A DNA stretch of 64,000 nt, taken from NCBI GenBank assembly GCA_032209605.1, contig JASFXZ010000001.1, positions 2,170,001-2,234,000 on the forward strand, in the 5' to 3' direction. How positions within the stretch are numbered: the first letter of the stretch is position 1; the number at the start of each line of letters is the position of its first letter. Source of the DNA: Mactromeris polynyma. Its lineage: Eukaryota > Mollusca > Bivalvia > Venerida > Mactridae. The notes beneath the pieces were generated by a model. The model did no database searches. It was not told where the DNA came from and saw only the letters and a program-made list of their open reading frames with translations. Shown piece by piece: positions 5,856-62,200 of the stretch. Made by a program: the position numbers and the translations under genes.

Positions 5856-7271
5856 ATGGCATTTGGGTTATATTCATTAATTGAGGCTGTTATATTATGT
5901 TTAAACGCAGTATGTGTACTACATGAAGAACGATTCTTGTCAAAACGTGTGTATATTGTTTAACTTTCACTAATTAATACCGATTCCACATACATTGATT
6001 AAGTTGATTAGTTTCGGATAACATTTTTCGGATATTATAATTACAATACATTGGTTTCATGACAAGTGTGAACTTATGATTTTGATTACAAATATGGCAT
6101 TTTGTCTATATCCCATGTGTCTACCCAGGGGTGTCAATAAGAGCTGGTAAAAATACACAGTAACTTTAGCATTTTCACCTAGCTACTTAATTATGTACTC
6201 TTGTATGACTATGAATGATAATAATTGAGGAGAGTACCCTACTGATTCTTGTGTTGATTTCCCTGCTACTTCAAGAATTAGTGACACCCCTGGGCATAGG
6301 AAAGCTAGGCCTGCATACACAAAACTGGACCTTTCCATACTGATTCTTAAGGTACCTGCCATCTCCTCCCCCGTTGGTAGACAAAACCATATAGTTATAA
6401 GTTATATGTCCGTGACGATACTTGGTATACTTGTGCATTATTACTCACTGACAATTCAATTACATATCTTTCAGTTGGCTGGGCAACAAACCAGCAAGGG
6501 TTCGGAGAACAACAAGGAATGAAAACACAAATAATGAATTTAGTTAGATCTATCAGAACTGTTATGAGAAGTAAGTTTGTATTAATTTTGCATATTTTTA
6601 TTTCATAGAAACGTTAAACATATAGAGTCTTAATTAACTTCTGTAGATCTGTCGAGATACTACAGACAAATATTCAAGGATGGCTTTCAAATTGAAAGAT
6701 GTGAAAAATGTGCTGCAGATGCATAATCATTTGTGTTTCAAACTTTCATAGGGTTATAGGAATATTAACTGCCCTAAATATCCGTAAATTTTCACCTAGA
6801 ATTATAAGGTGAATATGACTGAAACTGAACAGTTCCAAAGTGGCTCAAGAAAAAAGCCAGCGATAGTCCTGGAGGTTGTCAAGTCTGTGAAAGAACCTTG
6901 CTCATAGAATAACCCAAAACCTCGAGATCATACGTTCAGTGCTCCGTCTAGTTAGCTAGTTGTAATCTGCCATAGGTAGGGGAGAGCCCTAGATAATATT
7001 GTTAAAACTTTTGGCCCAACCCTTTTGTATGTATGTACAAGTTATTTTGTATATTTGTGCAAATATGATTGTTATATGTATACGTACAATAAAATATGAT
7101 TAAACTAAAAGTGCTCTGTCCTGACTCCTATGTCACAAAGACTGCTTTATTGCCATTATAAATGTATCTATTTTGTTTCAAATTTGTTACTTATTTACAT
7201 TTCTGTATATTTCAGTACCACTAATAGGCATCAATGTTGTAGTGATAGTGTTTATGCTGGTATTAGGCTGA
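5856..7271 (+). CDS. IER3IP1: Immediate early response 3-interacting protein 1 (Yos1-type), 3 exons
   Basis: Coding exons 5856-5946, 6475-6570 and 7216-7271 join in phases 1 and 1 to give 80 aa, against 82 aa in human. IER3IP1/Yos1 is a small ER/Golgi membrane protein involved in ER-to-Golgi traffic; this role is family knowledge. The sequence shows an N-terminal hydrophobic helix (MAFGLYSLIEAVILCLNAVC), the family motif VLHEERFL, the central GFGEQQG and MNLVRSIRTVMR segments, and a second hydrophobic helix after PLIGIN ending VLG and stop. Donors are GTGTGT and GTAAGT; both acceptors are TTTCAG or TTCAG. An alternative third exon at 6647-6726 is also phase-compatible and would replace the second membrane helix (see findings). 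A possible AATAAA lies near 7708. Confidence 0.93.
6129..6294. mobile_element. hAT-like MITE in IER3IP1 intron 2-side flank
   Basis: Termini AGGGGTGTCAATAAGAGCTGG and a right end ...TTAGTGACACCCCTG are inverted repeats. It lies within IER3IP1 intron 1. Relatives are at 49289-49443 (well conserved) and about 31265-31415 (diverged). No perfect 8-bp target duplication was found for this copy. Confidence 0.6.
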
Positions 7272-8100
7272 GACTTGATGACAACGTATTGGAACCAAGC
7301 TTTATTATCTCGGAACAGCAGAAGTTTTAATTACTATTTAACTGCCAAGTATTGTTGGATAAACTCTGTGAAGAAAGATGTGATATTTATCATTTTATTG
7401 TGAAAACTATTCATACTAATTAAACGCTGGTGAAGCTGACAAGTGCTATTGTTCTATCCATCTGTGCGTTGATGCAGATACTGATGACATTGACTCCTTA
7501 CTTCTACTAAAGGCGATGTAGAATCTGATTTTGCTAAGATATAAGTCATGTGACAGATGTGTACTAACCATGTCATTGTTTCAATATTGAAATAACAAAT
7601 GTTTGCCTTGCAGTTATAGTCATTGCTATTATGGGCATAAAAGGTTAATTTATTAAGAAAATGTGCCATTACCATTGATGATATATGTTAATATAATATT
7701 CATGTCAATAAATTACTGAATTTTTTTAACCAGTTTTCAAAAACAAACTACTCATATAATTTAAAAAAAACCTGATTTTTATAGTGTTGAGAAAACTTGT
7801 TTAATAAATTAGTATTTTATGACTACTCATACAATATCCTCTATTTAATTCAGCAATTCTTCCATCTTGCATTGTTACAGCTATTCTTCCCCAAACTCTT
7901 TTGTTTGATCGATGCATTTAATTTCATTTTATGTGGAGTATGTCAGCGAGTTACTGCTGGTCAGTTCTCCAGTGTGAAGGGAATACGACTGCTATAATTT
8001 AGTGATACATTTTTTGTAACTAAGATCAACAAATTTTGTAATCTGGTACATTTCTGTTAACAACATGAACTTGTTCCCTGTTTTGTAGTAAAAGTGATGC
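7272..8100. other. IER3IP1 3' flank
   Basis: AT-rich. The first part is probably 3' UTR. No further gene or well-formed repeat was seen. Confidence 0.5.
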
Positions 8101-38200: not shown

Positions 38201-41200
38201 ATTTTCCTCCACATGTGGAGAAGTTGCCGGCTCCTTGTGGAAGGGTAAGTTAGTACTGGTAAGAATTCAGTCTAGGAAAAACTGGTTAGGTGAACCGGCC
38301 GCCGTATATAACTGAAATATCGTTGAGAAACGGCGTTAAACCCGATGAAACTGACAGTCACATCATGTTTAATATTGTCTGCTCTGATACACATGTGGGA
38401 AGTTGTCAGCTACCTTCGCAGGACCTTGTCAGTACTAATTGATAATCCAGGAAAAATGGTTAAGCCAGCGGACCACCATACATACATACTTAAAACTATA
38501 AAATTACCTTCAAGTGGATGTTTATAATAAGGATGTGTGTGTGTGTCAATACCAAGGCTGATGTCTGCATTACAGAATATCAGTAGTTCAATTACTATAA
38601 TTGTGTGTTGAATTTTACATCACACAAGCAATCTTTTGTTACTTGGAGACATAGGTGATATAGTGTTGCCACAATGTGATACCAGACAGTGGACAATTAT
38701 ATGTATATTAGAGCTGTTTACTTTGCTTATAAATGTATGTATCAGTGCTAGGTCTGCCATTTTTTTTACCGATAGCTGTTGTTTATCTTACAGGTATAGA
38801 TGGATATCAGTTCTAAAGCTATTGTTTATCTTGCAGGTATAGATATTGGTACTAGACCTTATGTTTATCTTGCAAGTACAGGTATCAGTAATAGAGCTGA
38901 TGTTTATCTTGCAAGTACAGGTATCAGTAATAGAGCTGATGTTTATCTTGCCAATACAGGTATCTGTACTAGAGCTTATGTTTATCTTGCCAATACAGGT
39001 ATCAGTACTAGAGCTGATGTTTATCTTGCAAGTACAGGTATCAGTACTAGAGCTGATGTTTATCTTGCCAATACAGGTATCAGTACTAGAGCTGATGTTT
39101 ATCTTGCAAGTACAGGTATCTGTACTAGAGCTGATGTTTATCTTGCAAGTACATGTATCAGTACTAGAGCTGATGTTTATCTTGCAAGTACAGGTATCAG
39201 TACTAGAGCTGATGTTTATCTTGCCAATACAGGTATCAGTACTAGAGCTGATGTTTATCTTGCCAATACAGGTATCAGTACTAGAGCTGATGTTTATCTT
39301 GCAAGTACAGGTATCTGTACTAGAGCTGATGTTTATCTTGCAAGTACAGGTATCAGTACTAGAGCTGATGTTTATCTTGCCAATACAGGTATCAGTACTA
39401 GAGCTGATGTTTATCTTGCAAGTACAGGTATCTGTACTAGAGCTGATGTTTATCTTGCAAGTACATGTATCAGTACTAGAGCTGATGTTTATCTTGCAAG
39501 TACAGGTATCAGTACTAGAGCCGATGTTTATCTTGCAAGTACAGGTATCAGTAATAGAGCTGATGTTTATCTTGCAAGTACAGGTATCAGTAATAGAGCT
39601 GATGTTTATCTTGCCAATACAGGTATCAGTACTGGAGCTGATGTTTATCTTGCAAGTACATGTATCAGTACTAGAGCTGATGTTTATCTTGCAAGTACAG
39701 GTATCAGTTCTAGAGCCGATGTTTATCTTGCAAGTACAGGTATCAGTACTAGAGCTGATGTTTATCTTGCAAGTGCATGTATCAGTACTAGAGCTGATGT
39801 TTATCTTGCAAGTGCAGGTATCAGTACTAGAGCTGATGTTTATCTTGCAAGTACAGGTATCAGTACTAGAGCTGATGTTTATCTTGCAGATTCATGTATC
39901 AGTACTAGAGCTTATGTTTATCTTGCCAATACAGGTATCAGTACTAGAGCTGATGTTTATCTTGCAGATACGGGTATCAGTTCTCAAGCAGATGAGGAAG
40001 AAGGTGAAGGAGAAGCTGATGAAGACACTACGATCTCTGAACCATTTAAAAATCTCATAGCCGAACAGGAAGAGAAGAAAGAGCTGGAAAAGAAAGTTCC
40101 AAAAAAGAAGAAGAAAAAGAAAAAGTAAGTATGGAAACTATTGACATGACAAGAGGTGGAAGTGTAGTTCGTGTAGGAGAGCAAAGCTAGCTTACTCTTG
40201 TTGTATGTGACATAATCAAGCTGCTTAATTAGTGTTGTCAAAATGTGAATCACCTTGGACAATATAATTCATTGAACCTGTCATCGAAAATTAATTCTTT
40301 GTGCAGTTCGACACTCATTGTTAATCGATCAGTTTGGAATCTTCTCAATGGAATTACTTTTGCCTATAATAAGGTCAACCTACTGAACAAACAGCCTTCA
40401 TTCATTTCATTCATATCAATTATTGACTTAATTGTTCGATTTTAATACAATTTTAATACAATCCTAAGCTCTTAAATATATTGGGTTTAAAGTCACCAGC
40501 TGAAATGATTATATGCTTGCGTAATAGTCTACTTGCCATTGTATTCTGCGAAACAACATTTTTCAATATTTATTTGAATAATACAATGTTAGGGAAGGGG
40601 TGGATTATAAATCCATATAGTTCCATACATGTATGAATATTTTCTTCTATGTTTTATATATTAATATTAAAAATCTAATTATGCAATAACAAAGGTGAAT
40701 ACATTTTCAGTCATCAAGTTCTAGTATTCAGATGATTGTAATGCTCAGCAATGCATTCTGTAATTCACTTCTGTTCACAATGACCACTTAAAATATATAT
40801 CTTATATATATCTGGAAGAAGCATATATCTAAGACCCTAATTATTGCTTTCCTTAACTCTGCCTGGTTTTAATTATAATACCAGTTCCAGCTGTTTTAAT
40901 AGCCATTATTCAGCTATATTCCAAATGTCAAAAAGAATTTATTTTTTCCAATTATAATATAAAATTATCAATAAATATGAAAAAAACTATTTGGTTTAAG
41001 GTCAAGTTAAGAGAAAGGAACAATTTTTAGCCAAAAATTTCTTTGTCATGCAGTCTATTAATTAATCTCTGTACTTTTTACTTTTATTCCTAATATTTTG
41101 CTGTAATTGCTAATCTTTTTCCCAATTTCAGCGTTTAACACGCAAAAAATCCAAATTTGAAGGGTACGGGGGTCATCTTCCCTAAATAGCCAAAATATCC

Positions 41201-47200: not shown

Positions 47201-50200
47201 GATGTACTCAGCTTAAATTTTATATAAATATACCCCTGTTATAATAACTGATATTGTTTTTATCAGGACAATGTCTACATGCATCTAACAAACTATGCTA
47301 TAAACAAACACAGCGAGGATTTTATTCGTGATGATGAGGCCGGGAGTAAACGAAGAATAAGTACTACAAATAGATATATGGCATCGAAAGGATATGACGT
47401 GGATAAAATGTGGGCAGACATTGATGACGTTATCATTAAAACGTGCATATCAGCACATTCAGTATTAAAACATAACTATCGCACATGTTTTCCTAACCAT
47501 GTTAAAGGAAGTGGTTGTTTTGAAATTCTTGGATTTGATGTGATTCTTGATAGAAAACTGCGACCGTTTGTGATAGAGGTAATGTATTTTGTACTTTATT
47601 TCTGGATGTTTCTAGCATATTCTGTGTTCAGACAATTTAAAGTGTGAAATGCTTCTGTTTTATATCATGTAGTAAATATGCTTTTTTCAGCCACAGTCTG
47701 AGCTTTACAATGGTCTCTATATATTCTTGTCTAAAATACAGTCTCCACAATGCTCTCTGCATTAGTCCCTGTATGTACCATCTCTACAATGCTGTCTGCA
47801 TTAGGTCCTTTCTACATAATCTATACAACATTCTCTGCATCAGCTTCTGTGTATACCATCTCGACAATGCTCTCTGCATCATCACCTGTCTATATCATCT
47901 CCACAATGCTCTCTGCATCAGCACCTGTCTATACCATCTCCATACAGCTCTCTGCATCAGCACCTGTCTATACCATCTCCACAATGCTCTCTGCATCAAC
48001 ACCTGTATATACCATCTCCACAATGCTCTCTGAATCAGCACCTGTCTATACCATTTCCACAATGCTCTCTGCATCAACACCTGTGTATACCATCTCCATA
48101 CTGCTCTCTGCATCGGCACCTGTCTATACCATCTCCATACTGTTCTCTGCATCAGCACCTGTCTATACCATCTCAACACTGCTCTCTGCATCAGCACCTG
48201 TCTATACCATCTGGACACCTGTTTGTACCATCTCCACCATTCTCTGTTCATCTGCTCTAATCTTAACTACTGCCCTGACAATTCTCTCAGGACCTGTATA
48301 CATCATCCCCACACTGCTCTCTGCATCTGTTCCAGTCTTAGCTACTGCCCTTGCCACAATTTACTCGAGACCTGTCTGTGCAATCACCTTAATGCTCGAG
48401 ATATGTATCACCTCTTGTCCTACCTACAATCTCCACAATACTCTCTGTGTCAGTTCCTGTCTAATATTTGAATAACATTCTCGTGCATATTTGCTTTATT
48501 TGTGATATAATCACCAATACATATTATTGTAGGTGAATCATTCGCCTAGTTTTAACACTGATTCTGAGTTGGATAGGGAAATCAAAGGTGCACTCGTCTA
48601 TGATACTCTACAGCTGGTCAACTTTGGTGCTTGTGATCGACGCAAATGTATAGAGGAAGAGCGTAAACGAATTAAAGATAGGTTATTGGGTAAATCCAAC
48701 AGGAAAGATACAAGGTATTGTGATGATATTATTAGTGTATTATACAAGGTATTGTGATGATATTATTAGTGTATTATACAAGGTATTGTGATGATATTAT
48801 TAGTGTATTATACAAGGTATTGTGATGATATTATTAGTGTTTTATATATATTCAAGATATTGTGATGATATTATTAGTGTATTATACAAGGTATTGTGAT
48901 GATATTATTAGTGTATTATACAAGGTATTGTGATGATATTATTAGTGTATTATACAATGTATTGTTATGATATTATTAGTGTATTATACAAGCTATTGTG
49001 ATGATATTATTAGTGTATTATACAAGGTATTGTGATGATATTATTAGTGTATTATACAAGGTATTGTGATGATATTATTAGTGTATTATACAAGATATTG
49101 TGATGATATTATTAGTGTATTATACAAGGTATTGTGATGATATTATTAGTGTATTATTAGTGTTTTAACGGCCTCATCTATGACATTCCATTGTTGCCAA
49201 CTGAGAAGGTCATGCTCTCATACAGTAGTTGATCTAATGATGTGTGTGTGACAGTGTTTCATTAACATTAAGAGAAATATTGTCAATACAGGGGTGTCAA
49301 TAAGAGCTGGGAGCTGGTAAAATTAACGAGTAACATCACCCGGCTACTTATCTTGTATGAGAGATCATAATTAAGGGTGTACCCCAAATCCCCCACCTAC
49401 TTTTGATGATTTCCCTGCTAATTCAAACATTAGTTACACCCCTGTAAATATATATATAGACTTTAACCTGATAAGTAGGAGCCACTTTCTTCTATAAAAA
49501 TGTCAATATTTTAAGATGTAAGGTAATCCTGAAAAATATGTGTATATGGTACCCCATATGACCCAACAAAATTTGTCCAAAAATGCAATTTATTTTTGGC
49601 TCTTCTCTGCAATATTTTTCATGTCTCTAAGTGAAAACAGAGAAACCTAAAATAATCAACTTGCCTCAGACACTGTGGTTAGGGGTATGGCAAACATACC
49701 TCTTTTGAGGATGACTAGATATTTTTCAGCATGTAACTTTATATGCCACATTTTGCTGGGCTGTCTTTTGACAATCTTGGAGGCTAAAAATTGGCCCCTT
49801 TCACCAGACAGAAGAATATATATTTTCCCCCAAATTTGGGTCAAAATTCCCCTACACAACAAAAAAGAAAATTAAATTTGTGTTTTTCCGATCAAAACTC
49901 TCAAACACGAGAAATAGAGCTCTTGACTTTTATATACATTTTGGAATCAGAATTTGCTATTGTTGAAATGTGAAATTTACATTAAAATGTGTTTTGGTAT
50001 TGATTCTTGGATTGAAAAATTCCCCTTTTTTAGAAAAAAACGACGCAAAATTCCCCTTTCTCACGTCCCCGACCCCATTTCCCAAAAGTAGAAACACAGC
50101 CCTTCAGCCAGTAGTTGCATATGACAGATTCCATTTAAGAGTGTGGAATTAGGTACCAAAGACAAATAATAGTTTGTATAAAAAAAATCAGGATTTTTTT

Positions 50201-53200
50201 TAGTAAATGACAAAATTGTGATAATATAGTGTCAAAAAACTGAAAAAAAAAATTCTATCACGTTTTATTTGCTTTTAAATCGAATTTTAAATTTCGGGTT
50301 GCTAATGTCATTCTTTGACTGAATATTTGACGGAAATTTTTATGTTCACAACTTCAAAAAGTTTGAAAATTAAAGAGATTACCTCCATTAAATTAATAAC
50401 CAAATTATTAAAGTAACAAATTATTTAAAACTATATCAAAAGTAAGTATGATGTCTGCAAAGAACATTTCAAATACAGGTTTATGCAACTTTTTTTATGT
50501 TGATATCGTCATTTTTTGACGGAAAAATTGTTGCTAACATAATATTTTGACGGAACAATGTTTTAGCAAACATAATTTTTGACGGACCAATTATATGCCA
50601 ACATAATTTTTTGACGGAACAATATAAAAGAATACTTAAAAACCCATTCACTGCTAGTGTTGATAATCAGCTACATGTATGTTGCCCTTAACCCATTAAC
50701 TACCTATGCACATGCTATGGTGCTTTGTAACATAGTACTAGGGTAGACGTTTTTTTTTCACACTTCACCGTATTGGGTTGGGGAAGTCTCAGAACAATGT
50801 ACAGTGGATGTAAACATACATTGTAGGTCCCTAAATCGATGGAAGTTTCGTCAAACGAAAATAATTGACATTTTGGTGCCAATATATTATTTAGTGTCTG
50901 CATACGGAAGAGTTTGGAAATCTAACAGCTAGAGTGTCTTAAGATGATGCGAGTTGGTATCCGCCCGATCTGTATCATAGCTGTTTGCAATTCATGCTTT
51001 GGCATGGAAAGAGCCCGAGGTAATAAAACTTCAAAGCGTTCTCTGTGCTCAAAATTCAGTTTCATTTACAAGCTTCAGTACTGTAAATTTTGACTCAACA
51101 AAACATTCAATGCAAGAGGTTAGGCTTTATTTCAGTAGATATACAACTTTGATGAATATCTGTTGTGTAAATTGAAATGAACTAAAGATGATATGTTGGA
51201 CCTTTTGCATCAGTTATTTTGTTGACTTAATATAAACAATATGTAATACTAAACATAACGCTGCATCATAAGCAGATCTTTATTAAGAATGCAGAACATT
51301 TGAAATAATGTGGAACATCTGATGAAAATGTTTTTAGAATTTATAGTAAATTCTCGATCCCAGAAGGGAAAGTGATGGCTCTCCAATCTGGTCATCAATG
51401 TCACTCCAGCAAAGGAAGAATGGCTTCTCTTCCAAGGTATAAAATTTAGCTTTGGTTTTATGTGCCCGGTAAAACTGAACCCATAGTCCATAGGTCGATT
51501 CTGTAAACTCTTCAGGCTTTTGGACAACCTGCAAAAGTAAATTATGGACATACATATATGTATTGTAAAGTCTGTGTACTAAATAATAAGTAACAAGTTT
51601 CTGATATATTCTGTTTGTTTTTTAAATCTATTAACTCAGAATTTGAGGAACTGTAGAATGCAGAACTTTCTAAGTTAAAACATATAAGAGACTGTTATTT
51701 AAAGATGACATTTCAGCATCTAATTGCAGAGCAATTTATACAAGTTTCTGATTTAAGATTAATTGCTAAACCCTGGAACATAGATTTTATAATTACACGA
51801 CTATATGTTGTCTTGTTTATATGCATACTCCAGAAAGGTTATATAATATTGGTTAAATTATTAGGAAATAAACCAAAAAATTAAGTGCAATTCATATCCA
51901 TGGGCTAATCCAGAAATAAATATACTGGGAAGCATTTTCTTTGTACTTCCACCCAATCTTTGTGTATATTGTGAACGCTGGAGCAGCTCTTAAAAAGAGA
52001 CAAGCCAAATGGAAGATAATAAGAGAAAGGAATAAACATAACATACATGTAACATAGAACTCAAAGTAACACAATGACAAACTTGAAACAAAGTCAACAG
52101 AGGAACTTTATCTTACAAGAGCTTTTAAACTTTCAGAACCATGCCTGACCAAAACGTTTGTTCCTACAGCAAACCTGCACACAGCAAGATATACATTAAC
52201 AATCCCATACTAGTATATTAAGCAAATAATACAGTGCTCCCAAAAAGTTCTTGGACAACCGTTAAGTTTTCCTACAAGTATCATGTTAAACCCTGTTTAA
52301 TTTCAACTTCAATACTCTTTTTATGTATTATTCGGTATTATTCGGTATTAAGAGTAACCGCATTAACTGTTACAAACGTCGTTTTTAGGTGCTCAATAAT
52401 CATCGATTTATGTAATGGATTATGCAACACTGCTCACGCCCCCTAGCACTGACCTAAGCTATCTTCCATTTTCAAAGTGGTATTCTATTTCACAATTTAA
52501 TATGTTGAGATCCCGAAGGACCAATAAGTATACCAACACTGAGATGATTTAGTATTAAGAGCTGATTTATAAACAAACCTGTTAGAGGCTGGGCTAGTTG
52601 TCTGGCTTTGGTCTGGGCAGACTCTTGGAGCAAATGTAGGGGTTGCCATCTGCTCTTGGTCTTTGCAGCATATTTGGTCTGGGTGTTTTGTATTGGCAAT
52701 TACCGGGACTTCCGTCTGAGCTTCATCTTGAGTGAATGAGGGGAGCCGAGTCTTGACAACTGGTTCGCATGTCTCTTTACCAACTGACTGGCCTACATCT
52801 CGACTGTCTGACTGGGTTGAGGCTTGACCAACTGACTGGCTTACATCTTGACTGTCTGACTGTGTTGAGGCTTGACCAACTGACTGGCTTACATCTTGAC
52901 TGTCTGACTGGGTTGAGGCTTGGTCAACTGACTGGCTTACATCTTGACTGTCTGACTGGGCTGAGGCTTGACCAACTGACTGGCCTACATCTTCACTGTA
53001 TGACTGGGTTGAGGCTTGACCAACTGACTGGCTTACATCTTTACTGTCTGACTGGGCTGAGGCTTGACCAACTGACTGGCTTACATCTCGACTGTCTGAC
53101 TGGGTTGAGGCTTGACCAACTGACTGGCTTACATCTCGACTGTCTGACTGGGTTGAGGCTTGACCAACTGACTGGCTTACATCTTTACTGTCTGACTGGG

Positions 53201-56200
53201 CTGAGGCTTGACCAACTGACTGGCTTACATCTCGACTGTCTGACTGGGTTGAGGCTTGACCAACTGACTGGCTTACATCTCGACTGTCTGACTGGGTTGA
53301 GGCTTGACCAACTGACTGGCTTACATCTCGACTGTCTGACTGGGTTGAGGCTTGACCAACATCTTCACTGTCTGACTGGGTTGAGGCTTGACCAACTGAC
53401 TGGCTTACATCTTCACTGTCTGACTGGGTTGAGGCTTGACCAACTGACTGGCCTACATCTTCACTGTCTGACTGTTCTACACATTGACTTACTGATGATA
53501 CTCCATCTTGGTTGGAAGTCTGGACTACATCTTTCCTGACTGATTGTACTGGATCAACAAAATTTATGGTCTGCTCTGCTACATTCATGCTGTAATCATG
53601 ACTATTTTCAAACAGCAGCTCTGAAGAAAGTGCGCTTAAAAGCAAGTCCTCACAGTCTACAATATCTGACAGATTGAAGCTAGTATTAATATCAGAGTCA
53701 AAGTCAACCGTTTCAATGTCAGGACCCATCGACAGGATAGGCACGAAGTGATTAGGAATCCAGTGTTCTTTAGACATATCATTTCGTGTAGATGACCACA
53801 TTATTTTAACTTCAGCTTGAATAGCGTCACTGGCTGGATGAATAACACGGTTCAATAACAGTCTTGGTACAGCAGCTCCAAGAGATGGGTAAATTGAACG
53901 GACTGTGCACTTCAGCACTGTACTTAACGCAAACAGTTGCCATACCCCCATGTATGAACCTAATTTAGTTACAGCCATTGCCTCGACTTGAAATATCTGT
54001 TTTGTTGTCATTCTTGTGATAACTTCATTCATATACTTGTCCGAGAACATTGTGTAAGTCTTGATTAGGTTATGTTTCTCCTTTTCTGGTAGAGTTATGC
54101 CTCTGTTTAAGAATGTGTTGTCTGTGTAACAAGACTCATTATAGATCATCTCCACGACAATACGTGCTCTTATTTCTTCATGGGCAAGCTCATGCCCGAA
54201 CACCAGTACGCTCCCACACCTTGGTAAACAGTTACCATCACCAACAACATTTACAGGTAGTTGTGCTGTACAGTGTTCCTTCATGTCTTCTGGTACCAAC
54301 TGACAGGCAACTTTATCGGCTGTGAGTTTATTGTCCATTATATTTATGTTGTCATTAGCCAAAATAGGGTACAGTGAATCAAATTCTGGCTTCATAACTA
54401 GACACTTCTGGTGTAGCGCATCAAAACTTTCGCAGCTGCTAAGCTCTTGTAATTTTGCTGTAAAATACTGGTCTCTTGGCATATTATGCTTGGATACAGA
54501 TTCAGCATCTTTTGTCTCCTCTTTGTGTGGTGATGGAGAAGTATCCACAGGCATATCAGTGAAGCGATCTGTTTGCTCTCTGGTTCCTTCTGTCTCTGGT
54601 TTTTCGTCTGATTGTTTCACTGTTTTACCTTTCTTTGGTTTTTCTTCTGATGTGGACTTCTTTGATTCACCTGCTTGAGTTTTACTTGACTTTGTTTGTT
54701 CTACGAGGGTCTTCTCTTTATACGAGTTCACATACTTTGAATTCAAACAATCAGGGTTGCCAGCTTCACACTTTATGCAAAAACACGACAGATTTCGAGC
54801 CTTGAAAGTGTTTCTGGTTTGAAGATTCAATACTTGGTGGATTTTTCGAGTGTCCTGCACAGTCTGTGCTTTCATTATATCAGGTCTCTCTCTGTCTATT
54901 TCCCCTAATTTCACTAAATGAAATGTTCTTTTCGAAAATGGCGAGTCTGATTCCAAATTTTTCTTACAGTATTGGTACAGATCTTCTGCATCATTTATAA
55001 CAGTCTGATTAGCTACAATAGCTCTGTCAATACATCGATTCACAACACCGGTTTCAGCGTCGCATTCACTTTTTCCATGTTCTGAACCATAGAAATTTCG
55101 ATTGATAAGATCAGTAGAATCTGCCAATTCTGCAAACGGTCCCTTGGACTTGTACTGACAGCTACATCCATCGCTGAAGATGACTTTCCTGTTTGGTTTG
55201 CAGGCTCCAAGTTTCTCTTCAAGTTCAAGATCAACTATCTCCTGAAAATGCTGAACTGCATAATAATCATGACCATTATCCTCTGAGATCACTATACTTG
55301 AATTTCTTACTAAACCAGTGTCTGCCTTGTAAAATGTGATGATTGGGTGCATGGTAATTTGGCCAGCTGTATAGAATGCTCCCTTGATTTCATCTTGATA
55401 TTTGATTTCTCTATTCTTTGCAAAGTCCATGACTTGTAAAATGTCACAAGTGGGAAGTTGATTCTTGATTTGATTGAACTGAGCAATTTGCCAATGTGCT
55501 GTGTGAATGTGTTGGAAATAGCTAATTGCTTGAACTGGTCTCTTAAGATCATTTTCCACAAACTCCTCCAAGCATGCCTGCTTGTTGCCATTCTTTGTCA
55601 CAACCACTCTCTTGCGTTTGCCTTTTTCTGTCTCTCTGTACTCCCATCTTGTCCATGTTAATTGTTTATCATCTGGGACAGTACGATAATACTGATTCAA
55701 AGTATCCATATAGTTCTTGCAATCACTACAGTTAGCATTGATGCAATCAGGGTCGTGATATCTTTGGCCATCACGTTTTGGGCAGAGCACAATATCTAGA
55801 ACATCAGTTTCACATGTTTTTTTCTTGTCCTTGTCAACTACAGCTCTACTCAAGCAAAGCATTTTGTAACGTACATTGACGCAATAAACACAACAACAAA
55901 ATTCCCTATCAGAAACACTCAATAGACGAACATTCTTTGTACGCAATGCAGCGAACTTGCCAAGGCTCACACGTTTTGTTGGATTTTCAGCTAGATATTT
56001 AGAATGTGCTGCTTTTAGAGATACTTGCATCGCATACCCCGGTCCATCCTTTGTCGTGTATCTCTTCCCTGGCAAGACTCTGGAAATATCTTCCCGAAGA
56101 AAAAATTTCTGAATCGAATTTCTATCAACGTGAGATTTTCGTTTCATGATAGAACCTTTTCTATGTGCGATATGTCCTGCTGTATATTTTTTGACTAAAT

Positions 56201-59200
56201 GCTCAGCGACAATGACAGAAGAAGCCTTCGAACTTTTCAACACCTGTTTAATAGCTAGTACCTTTCTGGCATATTGCACACTTGTAGTTGACTTTGAAAT
56301 TTTCAGCTGTTTTAGAGCTTCTACTTTCCTTGGTGATGCTTTGGACAGCAAATTATCCACCACTTTCGCAAATTTTGTTGGTGATTTAGGTATACTTTTC
56401 CTTACTTTTGATGTTATATTGTACTCTGTTTTTTTAGACGCAAACGGACTTCCTGTTGATGTTGATAAAATTTCCTTTAGTTTCGCTGCTTCTTTTCTAT
56501 TTTTCTTTTTTCTTTCTTTGTCCTTCTTTCTAATCCACATCTTTTTTTGCCACGACATTTCCTGTCTTTCTTTTCTTTTCTTTCGTCTATTGTACTCCCT
56601 TTTTGTTTCAATAATGTTCCTTGTTTGAGGTTTAGCCTTTGTACTAGGTGTTGAACTTTTGATGCTTATTCCTTGTTCTTTCTTTCTCTCCATATACCTG
56701 TGCATAAGTTTAAACAAGAGCTATTTATAAACACTTACATTGGTAAATATGTGTTTATAATGGTTTTGAAAGATTTGTACTAGTGACCAAGTTTTAAACC
56801 CCACATGATCCAGTTTCGAAATTGACCTCTAGATTTCATTGACACAATTTGAAACAAGAGATCACAGAGTGATCTTGACGCCCACCATAGACCCATTTGT
56901 GGATGTTCCAAATTTCATGACTAGCTCAAATCATTAAAGGCAATTCGGCGATCTTTTAATCTGTTCTATATGGGGTAAAGCAAATAAAGCGTGACATTTT
57001 GTGAAAAAATAAAGTTTGAACAATAATTATTTTACAAATCATTTTCTAAAGCTAGATCCTTAAATTTTACGAAAAATATAGTTTCGCATGAAAATCTTCC
57101 TGTCTTCTAAAAAAAATACATTTTTTGAAAAAGTGCATGTCACGCTAAAATGGCCATTTTTTGTGATTTTCTTCAACTTTGTGATGTCATATCTTCAGAA
57201 CGGGTGAACCGATTTCTTTGAAAATTGGAACACAAACAGTTTAAACCATGTACATATTAACTAAGCAATACAAAATAAATTTCTTAATCAAAATAGTGTG
57301 TAATAAACAATGCAATCTTGGCTTCAGTTAAAATATGTCTTATTTGCTTTACCCCATATGTCTAGGTTACATATGACGCAGCTAAGTGAAGTTTTGCCAT
57401 GTGTTGTGATCCATTTCAGTGTTTAATATACTATGAAATGTACTAAATTCAATGCTAGATCTTACTGACCTTTTTTGTCTGCGTCTCTGCATTTCATTTT
57501 GATGTGCTTTTTTGGCTTTAGATTGCTCATTTCCTTTTTTCTTCTGCAACTCCCTTTTCAGTTCCTCACGTCTCTGTTTGGCTGTCACCTTCTGTTTATC
57601 TAGATATATTCTGTACCTTTCTGGATCTTCTGTTTTCATTTTATTTCGAGACAGGGCAGACTTACTCTTGTGAGTTCCTGAAAACCAAACATATCTTTCT
57701 CCATTTATGTCAGCAAAATGAATTCTGGACTAGGGCTCTTGCTTCTGAATGAAGCATAAATTTTGTATCCCACCATGAATTTGTCACGACCCTCAGTCAC
57801 ATCATTCTCTAGCCTCTAGGTTTCTTGTGATGGGGGTTGATTTAAGATTTTTTAAATAAATATTGTGTGAAATCAGATAAAACCAGTAGAGATTGAACCA
57901 TATATAGTGTAGAGATTCATCAATATAAAGTAAATAATCACAAAATGTGTAACTAGGAGGTTAAAAAAAGAAAATATAGTGACTTACTGTCACCAAGGCT
58001 GTTGGTGTCATCACGGACCGTGTCTTCCATTTCGGAGCTCTAGATGTCTATGAAAAGAGTCTGAAAAGTATGGAGAAAACACAATTCTAAGTTTGTTTGT
58101 GAAAACACAGTTCTAAGTTTGTTTGGATTTTGCCGCCTTTAACAGGACACGTGCCTGGATAGGAGATTTTGTAGACTACCTCAGGTAGTGTAGACGTTAA
58201 ACAAGAAGGTAAATCAAAAGGATGACATTCACAACTTAAAGTCTGTCAAAAGCTGACGTTCACAACATTAATGGTCACAATTGTTTGTACAATGGGATAT
58301 TAAGTTTCAAAATTAACTCTGGTGTTAAGCAAAACACTAAAACTTTCAAATCATAAAATAAGTGGCCCTACCTACAAGATTAAACAAGTTTATTAAGCTT
58401 TTGTCTGTCAAAATGACATTAGCAACATCACAAGAAATGACGTTAGCCTCCTTTGTCTGTCATGATATGACATTCACAACTAAAAGTCTGTCAAAAGCTG
58501 ACGTTCACAACATAAATGGTCACAATTTCTGTACAATGGGATATTAAGTTTCAAAATTAACTCTGATGTTAAGCTAAAACACTAAAACTTTCAAATCATA
58601 AAATAAGTGACCCTACTCACAAGATAAAACAAGTGTATTAAGCTTTTGTCTGTCAAAATGACGTTAAGCAACTTCACAAGAAATGACGTTAGCCTCATTT
58701 TTCTGTCATGATATGACGTTCACAATATAATATCTGTCAAATCCTGACATAAGCAACAAAAATATCCGTCACAAACATACGATCGCAACGAATTATTCCG
58801 TCAGAAAATGACGTTCATTCATGCGCATGGGTGTTTTTCAAAATAAACAGAAACTATCTAAGCGATCACCTGTTGCCGGCGAATCAAATGCATTTCTGAC
58901 CTCAAATACAAAATATCAGTGTCACAAAATGACTGGAATCGATAGAACACAACCTCTTTGGAGAACGTCATTAGTTGCGAACATAAAATAAAGTTGACAG
59001 ACACGATTAAACTTCAAAAAACCAACCTAAGTATCTCAGTTCCTCACCCGCCCGCCAAGTGTAAGCATTCGGTTTACTTCGGTGTTTACCTCAATGAACC
59101 CAATCAGAATGAATCAACGGAAAGTAACCCTCTAATACAGTGGGAGATAGGTCGAACGTCACTAAAACAAATTGACGGAAATTATGTTCGCAAATTATTT

Positions 59201-62200
59201 TTTTAGAATTTCGTACGAAAGTCGTATAAAAACTGTCGATGGTGACATTTTTTAACAAGGACGAGTTGTTCCTATCTAACTAAGAAAGCCTCATTAAACA
59301 TTCGTGCTTACAAGCTTGAGTTTCTTCACATTTTGCAAACGTCACTTGATTGACAGATGTGCAGTACGATACGTACCAAAAATGAAATCCGTAAAATGTA
59401 TTTCATTAATCAAACTAAACAACAGAAGATGTTATTTTTTATTACTGAAAAGTATTTATATCAATAATAAACCGTACTTACCTAGGATGTTGGTCTTTGA
59501 ATTGAAAAAATATACCAGGTAATCAACATGGTGTAAACGCCGGGACATAAATTCCGTCAAACTGACGACGGATGTGCTATACATTTGCAGTTTTTTCCCT
59601 CAAAATGTCAGATTAATGGAATTTAAACATTTTTTTTAAGAACTATTTTCAATACTCTAATTCATCAGGCCTAGTAAATAAAGATACATTACAAGGTAGT
59701 TCAAATTTTAAGCTTAAAAAAAATTGACGGACAAAATGACGTTTTCACAAGTTTTAAATGGAATCTGTCATATAACATTCTGTATAAGTAGTTTGCATGT
59801 TTGTTATATAAATTTATGGACAGGGATACATGTTTGAGGTATTTTTTTTTTCCAGGGAAGAATTAGACTTGGCTCAGCAACAGTATATTGAGACTTTGGA
59901 TAAATATGAAAATAATCACCTTGGTAACTTTAGACGAATATATCCTAATCCTGGAATGGAAAAATATGAGAAATTCTTCCACAGTAGTGGCACATTGTTT
60001 CAAGAAACTGCTGCATTCAAAGCTAGGAGTGAACTTGCTAGGTATTGTACATTTTGATGATATACGTTGACATTAATGTGTTATCAGTATACAGTCAAAC
60101 CTGTGTTAAAGACCACCTGCGAACAAAGACCACTATTGCAAAACCTGTCTGCAAAGACCACCAATTTCATCTCCCATCAGACCATATTCAGTGATATTTA
60201 ATCTGTTAATAGAGACCACCTGTAAACAAAGACCACATTTTGCTGTTCCCATGGGTGGTCTTTACAGACAGGTTTGACTGTAATCTCATCGTAATTTATG
60301 TCCTCCTCCCCATATAATGGTAGGAGACATATCAGTTTTGACAGGTTTCGCTGTACAAACTGCCATGGGGAAGACATATGTTGTTTTTTTTTCAGAAACA
60401 TCCATCTAGTGTTTAACATTGTTTCATAATTTCTCTCTAATAAGCAACATAGGTGCTGTTGCTTTGGAATGGTTACATAACTTCTCTCTAAAAAGCAACA
60501 TAGGTGCTGTTGCTTTGGAATGGTTACATAACTTCTCTCTTATAAGCAACATAGGTGCTGTTGCTTTGGAATGGTTACATAACTTCTCTCTAATAAGCAA
60601 CATAGGTGCTGTTGCTTTGGAATGGTTACATAACTTCTCTCTTATAAGCAACATAGGTGCTGTTGCTTTGGAATGGTTACATAATTTCTCTCTTATAAGC
60701 AACATAGGTGCTGTTGCTTTGGAATGGTTACATAATTTCTCTCTAATAAGCAACATAGGTGCTGTTGCTTTGGAATGGTTACATAACTTCTTTCTTATAA
60801 GCAACATAGGTGCTGTTGCTTTGGAATGGTTACATAATTTCTCTCTTATAAGCAACATAGGTGCTGTTGCTTTGGAATGGTTACATAATTTCTCTCTAAT
60901 AAGCAACATAGGTGCTGTTGCTTTGGAATGGTTACATAACTTCTCTCTTATAAGCAACATAGGTGCTGTTGCTTTGGAATGGTTACATAACTTCTCTCTT
61001 ATAAGCAACATAGGTGATGTTGCTTTGGAATGGTTACATAATATCTCTCTTATAAGCAACCTAGGTGCTGTTGCTTTGGAATGGTTACTTAATTTCTCTC
61101 TTATAAGCAACATAGGTGCTGTTGCTTTGGAATGGTTACATAACTTCTCTCTTATAAGCAACATAGGTGCTGTTGCTTTGGAATGGTTACATAACTTCTC
61201 TCTTATAAGCAACATAGGTGCTGTTGCTTTGGAATGGTTACATAACTTCTCTCTTATAAGCAACATAGGTGCTAGTGCTTTGGAATAGTTATAACTGTTA
61301 GTATCAGCTTTATATTGTGTTGTGCAAGGTCTAAACAATATATATTGCTGGTAACCTGGCTAGCCATAATAGTTTTCTTAGGCTGTCAGTTTTAAGTCAA
61401 AAGTCCTTTTGGGTCAAAGGTCAAGTATAGTGATCTCAATCCCTGTACAAATGCTGAAGAGATCCCCCCCCCCTGTTAAGTAGTGTTGGAATGATGGGAT
61501 TGCACCTTGGATAAATTATTATTACGACATTTGTTTATGGCTGTTGTATTTATGAATGAATATGTTCTGTTTATGGGATGGGTCTGTTAACAAATTGAAT
61601 AACCATTTTTATTGTGCAATTACACAGAACAACATGAACGTTTAACTGTACATGGATTCAATGTTTATTGTACAGATATAAATCATGTGACTTTCAGGCA
61701 ACAACGAGAAGAAATTTCTAGAAAGAAGGAAAAATTAGAATCAATGTTGAAAGGCAAGAAGAATTCAACAGGCGTTGCACGTCCAGAAAGTCCTGGAAGT
61801 ATACGAAGACGGTCATTGCGTAGAACAACGATGCCTGCGAGACGGATACAATCCAGTTCTAGAACAAGCCTTGATGTACTCAATTTTTTATCCTGCCTAT
61901 TCCAAAGTCATTAATATTATGAGTATATGATGCTTTATTTTTAGTACCTGAGGTTTTGCTGATACAATTAGAGCTATCGATACTGTAATTGAAGAAGAAC
62001 GTTCTTATTTCCGGAAATCTTTAATGAACAAACATCAGTTTTCTTATAGTTAATGTTTTTCAGGACAGCCGAACTAACATGGCTTTGCTATTTGCATATC
62101 AGTGTTCTCTAAACCAATTAAATCTTACGTAACAACTAAACCAACTTCTCTTCACCCATACAATGTTTGTAACCTTGACGCGGATTGGTCTACCTTTTGA

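Follow-up and report, generated by a model that had tools for sequence, protein, structure and literature searches.

The question raised by this locus is to which kind of DNA transposon it belongs. In a 64,000-nucleotide stretch of the bivalve Mactromeris polynyma (contig JASFXZ010000001.1, positions 2,170,001 to 2,234,000; here called the window), an earlier note had described a 9.65-kb transposon that matched no superfamily its author could name. We assign this focal element, with a probability of about 0.75, to the cut-and-paste DNA transposons of the Sola kind (Sola2-like), with a single transposase gene whose product also carries an OTU-like domain, probably a deubiquitinase. The Sola superfamily, and within it Sola2, is the closest fit because three features agree, namely, three aspartates of predicted catalytic function (DDD), AT-rich 4-bp target-site duplications, and short terminal inverted repeats. 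The element is probably not a new superfamily but an OTU-bearing member of the described Sola type; "poorly described," as the note put it, is a fair term, whereas the new lineage that it also considered would be new at the family or subgroup level at most.

Relatives of the focal protein were identified in the genome from which the window was taken (793 Mb, 299 contigs). The protein search, in which match and locus counts are lower bounds, gave at least 62 matches grouped into at least 50 loci. The DDD part was present at at least 46 loci and the OTU part at at least 27; both were found at at least 23, the DDD part only at at least 23, and the OTU part only at at least 4. Three families comprise equally scoring, stop-free copies: F1 (1422 aa; at least seven copies) and F3 (1250 aa; at least nine copies), both with DDD and OTU parts, and F2 (779-aa frame; at least eight copies), for which there was no OTU match in the protein search and no OTU motif in the scanned 8.7 of 9.3 kb. 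Each family includes a pair of copies with different flanks that are identical or nearly so (F1, 99.986% over 6,936 bp; F3, 99.986% over 7,116 bp; F2, 100% over 9,302 bp). Since near-identical copies sit at different sites, we infer that the wider group moved recently. A further relative, C90, shares 46% identity over 786 alignment columns (the transposase core plus the greater part of the OTU region) and has an open 868-codon frame. The DNA search of the genome also gave copies of an element nested in a focal intron, as well as diverged relatives at 65 to 66%. Viral contigs gave no match in the protein search and 30 and 19 loci in two motif scans, 27 of the 49 with an in-frame match, by eye unrelated; a pattern search of further genome contigs gave seven matches, none confirmed, and phage sequences gave no match.

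Two observations concern C101. An internal patch of ~320 bp (window 54590 to 54910; L058 5544 to 5861) is 98% identical to a C101 remnant, whose adjoining OTU region is only 44% identical in protein; such a mosaic may reflect gene conversion or recombination among members of the family. Three equally scoring 1013-aa transposase frames with no OTU match (G000:C101:10375896, 10392859, and 10409822) are spaced exactly 16,963 bp apart, and this spacing suggests a tandem array.

The target site was read from these relatives. The termini are GAGTC...GACTC in F1 and F3 and GACTC...GAGTC in F2. The base just outside them varies among insertions and in most equals its partner across the element, and for this reason the base beside GAGTC is assigned to the target. 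Exact 4-bp duplications were found in 9 of 12 readable relative insertions, or 10 of 13 when the focal copy is included: four of six in F1 (C101 ATAA, C6 ATAT, C68a GTAT, and C234 ATAT), all four in F3 (C245 ATAC, C230 ATTT, C112b TTAG, and C289 CTAT), one of two in F2 (C1 ACAT), and the focal one. The tally omits F1 C68c, F3 C13, and F3 C112:33239364 (one flank N), counts C66 together with C289 (same site), and excludes six of eight F2 copies and two of nine F3 copies. An exact 4-bp duplication is expected by chance with a probability of 0.0055 per site, a value to be read knowing that the register was picked on the same insertions on which it was scored. By the rule obtained from the relatives, the focal target would be a 4-bp AT-rich site duplicated as ATAT/ATAT, so the junctions read ATAT|GACAG...CTGTC|ATAT and the element extends from 50123 to 59769, with 16-bp inverted repeats starting with GACAG. 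The TA target proposed previously is thereby replaced: because ATAT is palindromic, the duplicated bases looked like more of the inverted repeat, and only TA remained recognizable.

The predicted catalytic residues are conserved. In an alignment of five paralogues (29% to 49% identical to the focal protein), three aspartates are invariant (5/5) in the contexts DF, SDG, and HGKxxxD, with spacings of 81 to 84 and 36 to 41 residues, and nine cysteines around the core are likewise invariant. We predict that the three aspartates form the D-D-D catalytic triad of the transposase. These aspartates, numbered D508, D593, and D630 in the earlier note, and the candidate OTU cysteine C907 were found as described there (residues 432, 517, 554, and 831 of the open reading frame [ORF]). 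Many unnamed animal proteins carry an HGKG..D motif. Searches of Pfam, NCBIfam, and PHROG with the DDD core matched no family. Sequence searches of the PDB gave no match with the whole ORF and Fur proteins alone with the DDD core (E, 0.35 to 0.4; regarded as chance), and alignment profiles A1 and A3 gave a weak OTUD1 match plus chance matches only. The C(2)C and H(3-4)H motifs of the CMC group (EnSpm/Mirage/Chapaev, ESTA), as given in the available portion of PMC12730594, were not visible by eye in the focal sequence between ORF residues 517 and 554, i.e., between the second and third aspartates, and CMC membership was rejected on this basis.

The downstream domain is probably an OTU-like cysteine protease; the support is weak. 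Four of the five members of alignment A4 matched Pfam PF02338 (OTU; best E, 0.0017), the whole-protein scan of F3 gave OTU at an E value of 0.03, and the three best PDB profile matches were OTU proteases (OTUD1 and OTUD7B on top), with weak E values of 0.07 to 0.7. The OTU cysteine (DxNC) is present in all five members, and the histidine of the NHF motif is present in all four that reach that far; the C90 row ends earlier. The OTU-type Cys/His pair previously proposed remains a candidate, with scores under the Pfam cut-off. In the C90 relative (L061 3322 to 3700), the OTU region ends just before the histidine and a repeat takes over while the frame stays open; because the region stops short of its histidine, the protease of this copy is probably dead.

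The terminal structures reported for the element are present. The inverted ends at 50122 and 59770 match exactly over 17 bp, and the perfect inverted match reaches 20 bp when ATA on each side is included. Eight pairs of inverted 17-mers spaced 5 to 15 kb apart occur in the window, whereas 30 Markov simulations averaged 0.13 pairs; one pair was dropped as low complexity, and the other seven represent three distinct inverted repeats. The inverted ends by themselves are suggestive of an element without being decisive, and the clustering of subterminal motifs is the stronger evidence. The TGACGGA-type repeats noted at both ends were confirmed as TGAC[AG]GA at 10.4/kb in the left 579 bp and 9.6/kb in the right 1,570 bp, against 0.40/kb in the interior and 0.29/kb outside the element, i.e., ~24- to 36-fold denser at the ends. 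The C90 relative has a similar array (TCCGTCA/TGACGATCG) immediately upstream of its gene, and the C57 relative has a motif cluster. The right 242 bp of the focal element recurs at C24:4886929-4887169 with 98% identity. In this copy (L059 923 to 947), a second TGACAGA lies immediately outside the inverted repeat, and no partner end with up to four mismatches was found across 9.9 kb of L059.

The element contains a single minus-strand gene of six exons, all with GT-AG splice sites, and 1561 codons (Table 1). Exon 3 is stop-free over 1,373 codons, compared with at most 165 in 30 simulated windows, and its GC content per codon position (0.49/0.39/0.35) is as coding sequence would show. Of the small exons, exon 6 alone has outside support, from the F2 C terminus (0 of 500 shuffles reach the score); exons 1, 2, 4, and 5 were predicted from splice sites and reading frame, and to that extent the six-exon model proposed earlier is only partly substantiated. 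The C-terminal exons compared with F1 and F3 were not significant (191 and 490 of 500 shuffles reach the score, respectively), nor were exons 1 and 2 compared with F1, F3, and F2 (85, 371, and 74 of 500). Because F1 and F3 encode the core, OTU, and C terminus in one uninterrupted frame, introns in this part of the gene are not a hallmark of the group. Different tandem repeats lie downstream of the conserved domains in the focal element, in C90 (L061 3363 to 3695), and in F2 (L085 ~6763 to 7600), as if the linker grew repeats repeatedly.

Table 1. Coordinates of the focal element, its gene, and its surroundings in the window
Feature	Position	Strand	Remarks
Left target duplication ATAT, 4 bp	50119..50122	.	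Assigned by the flank rule of the relatives; lies within 20-bp inverted repeat I4
Left terminal inverted repeat, 16 bp, GACAGATTCCATTTAA	50123..50138	+	
Left subterminal cluster, five TGACGGA repeats	50328..50618	+	8.6/kb vs 0.11/kb outside element
Exon 6, C-terminal	51334..51528	-	Matches F2 C terminus
Exon 5 (predicted, weakest)	51926..51988	-	GT-AG and frame alone
Exon 4 (predicted)	52117..52174	-	GT-AG and frame alone
Exon 3: cysteine clusters, DDD transposase core, OTU-like domain, repeat tail	52579..56697	-	
48-bp tandem repeat, 14.8 copies	52775..53474	-	Encodes 16-aa Ser/Gln-rich repeat
OTU-like cysteine protease domain (probable), DGNC ... EHWIPNHF	53721..54323	-	Subthreshold scores
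DDD catalytic region (predicted), D at ORF 432, 517, 554	54846..55463	-	Invariant in 5/5 aligned paralogues
Nested 392-bp inverted-repeat element in intron 2, not transposon proper	56968..57359	.	20-bp perfect arms; other copies in genome
Exon 2, basic (predicted)	57470..57677	-	Splice sites and frame
Exon 1, ATG (predicted)	57988..58030	-	Splice sites and frame
Right subterminal array: TGACGTT, TGACAGA, TGACGGA	58222..59743	.	Both strands; includes 245-bp duplication
Right terminal inverted repeat, 16 bp	59754..59769	-	
Right target duplication ATAT, 4 bp	59770..59773	.	
Host TTLL6-like intron containing element, 11,141 bp	48715..59855	+	Flanking exons match TTLL6 in order, join in frame

The insertion lies in a host gene. 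TTLL6 is matched in order by plus-strand exons at 47252, 48533, and 59856, and the reading frame stays open when the exon ending at 48714 is joined to that beginning at 59856. The element is antisense to this gene and fills most of the intron, its right end lying 86 bp (82 bp past the duplication) before the next exon. As the TTLL6-like exons on either side join in frame, the intron of this tubulin-modifying enzyme gene carries the element as an insertion and not as a host gene. Within the element, the nested 392-bp element appears to have arisen from a longer one by internal deletion, because its two halves occur elsewhere (up to 98% to 100% identical) at ~2 kb or more from each other where they are on the same contig. 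Other long tandem repeats with open frames were observed in the window at 60421 to 61291, 38805 to 39981, and 1241 to 2293 (units of 51, 39, and 26/51 bp, respectively).

Several results weigh against the assignment to a Sola2-like, OTU-bearing transposon. Three of the 13 duplications are inexact (F1 C68b ATAT/GTAT, F1 C157 ATGT/ATAT, and F2 C278 ATCT/AAGT), and GTAT, CTAT, TTAG, and ATAC in F1 and F3 are looser than AWWT. The focal inverted repeat of 16 bp fits the 12 to 21 bp of the Sola2 examples, whereas those of F1 and F3 are longer (33 to 34 bp) and imperfect, and these two families lack the TGACGGA subterminal arrays. Mapping of other copies, as the earlier note had proposed, placed the three related families on their own ends and 4-bp duplications, whereas the DNA search of the genome gave no second full-length copy of the focal family (a lower bound). 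C289, C66, and C13 share one right flank, so some equally scoring copies may be assembly duplicates. The Pfam search that had also been proposed gave the OTU match below the curated cut-off (focal, 14.5 bits versus 23.3) and no family for the DDD core; the fifth alignment member (C101) matched ZYG-11_interact (E, 0.017) instead of OTU, and the whole F1 protein and the 733-aa C90 piece matched no Pfam family. Two single-sequence AlphaFold models had a predicted local distance difference test (pLDDT) score of 31 each and did not support an RNase-H fold. Finally, the Sola2 placement, though probable, is one by description (DDD, AT-rich 4-bp duplications, and short inverted repeats) and not by comparison with a Sola2 protein.

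How far these points favor other explanations can be judged from the same data. A DDD superfamily in its own right, with duplications of 4 bp and distant from or unrelated to Sola, would account for the DDD core that matched nothing in Pfam, NCBIfam, or PHROGs, for duplications more varied than the Sola2 ones in the consulted part of PMC3627910, and for the failure to find OTU in Sola in the literature searched. However, the absence of a match says little, the presence of Sola models in those libraries being unchecked, and the length and AT bias of the duplications, the short focal inverted repeat, and the DDD residues all agree with Sola2; we regard this explanation as improbable. Somewhat unlikely, too, is that the OTU-bearing elements form a separate lineage or superfamily beside Sola in which the deubiquitinase would be integral to transposition and is kept across paralogues ~30% to 50% identical to the focal protein. 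The TA that directly adjoins the 17-bp ends would suit a TA-duplicating transposon (a Tc1/mariner-like, PHISTA-like, or ESTA-like superfamily), and such groups exist, as the portion of PMC12730594 at hand documents. Yet the 4-bp repeats of the relatives exceed TA, some of them (ATTT and ACAT) without a central TA, no Pfam transposase family was matched, and the CMC-type pattern was unseen, which leaves this a very slim prospect. It is hardly credible that a domesticated or passenger host gene lies by chance between inverted repeats: the long, intron-containing open frame does lie inside a host gene region, but it sits wholly within one TTLL6-like intron on the opposite strand, and there are dozens of dispersed relatives, three families of which map to their own ends and duplications. 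The transposon nature asserted at the outset, as opposed to a single-copy syntenic host gene, therefore stands, with relatives that are multicopy and dispersed and a focal copy inside one host intron.

For the Sola2-like element, a mechanism can be proposed from the sequence features. The left TGACGGA cluster is likely to contain binding sites; the transposase would bind the TGAC-type subterminal repeats, as suggested by their clustering and by the arrays in the C90 and C57 relatives, and might then pair the two element ends. The DDD site would cut at the GA...TC termini, consistent with the duplications and the conserved residues, and joining of the ends at a 4-bp stagger in an AT-rich target would leave ATAT on both sides. 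The substrate of the OTU domain is probably ubiquitin on the transposase, on its partners, or on target chromatin, and its removal could prolong or localize activity. We favor a role in shielding the transposase from ubiquitin-dependent turnover over action on chromatin or a host silencing factor, at roughly even odds. Not all relatives seem to need the domain: none is seen in F2, a family with a pair of copies that match at 100% across 9.3 kb. OTU-bearing and OTU-lacking relatives thus stand side by side in one genome, both with near-identical, probably recently moved copies, and F1 and F3 versus F2 offer a natural comparison of whether deubiquitination helps transposition, better suited than the single focal copy.

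OTU or Ulp1 proteases recur on unrelated transposon proteins, including those of Ginger1, Helentrons, and Mutator (available portions of PMC2836005 and PMC6431247). Like the focal element, Helentrons/Helitrons of animals can encode an OTU-like cysteine protease within a transposon protein (PMC6431247, in part), but their enzyme is a Rep-helicase of the rolling-circle type and not a DDD transposase. ESTA and PHISTA are DNA transposons with a DDE/D-type transposase, but they have TA duplications, are fungal, and carry TET/JBP genes, and the available portion of PMC12730594 does not mention OTU. The OTU fusion, which the author of the earlier note could match to no superfamily, has a precedent on a DDE transposase in Ginger1, some families of which have a C-terminal OTU domain, along with introns and animal hosts, including the mollusc Aplysia; however, according to the same part of PMC2836005, Ginger1 has a Gypsy-integrase-like core, a GC-rich 4-bp target, and TGTNR termini, and Ginger1 membership is ruled out here by the GACAG, GAGTC, and GACTC termini and the AT-rich duplications.

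The Sola transposases described by Bao et al. in 2009 are reportedly DDD enzymes with 4-bp duplications. The accessible part of PMC3627910 gives AT-rich 4-bp duplications (AWWT; ATAT, AAAT, and ATTT) and inverted repeats of 12 to 21 bp for Sola2, some members of which captured accessory genes, e.g., Fanzor1, and Sola1, Sola2, and Sola3 are reported in bivalves among the molluscs surveyed (PMC10294476, in part). No report of OTU in Sola was found in our literature search, which is not proof of absence, as most subscription papers lay outside it. The focal element differs from Sola2 in the fusion of an OTU-like domain to the transposase and in its multi-exon gene, and it shares with Sola2 the DDD residues, AT-rich 4-bp duplications that include ATAT, short inverted repeats, and a large transposase, in a group where accessory genes also occur.

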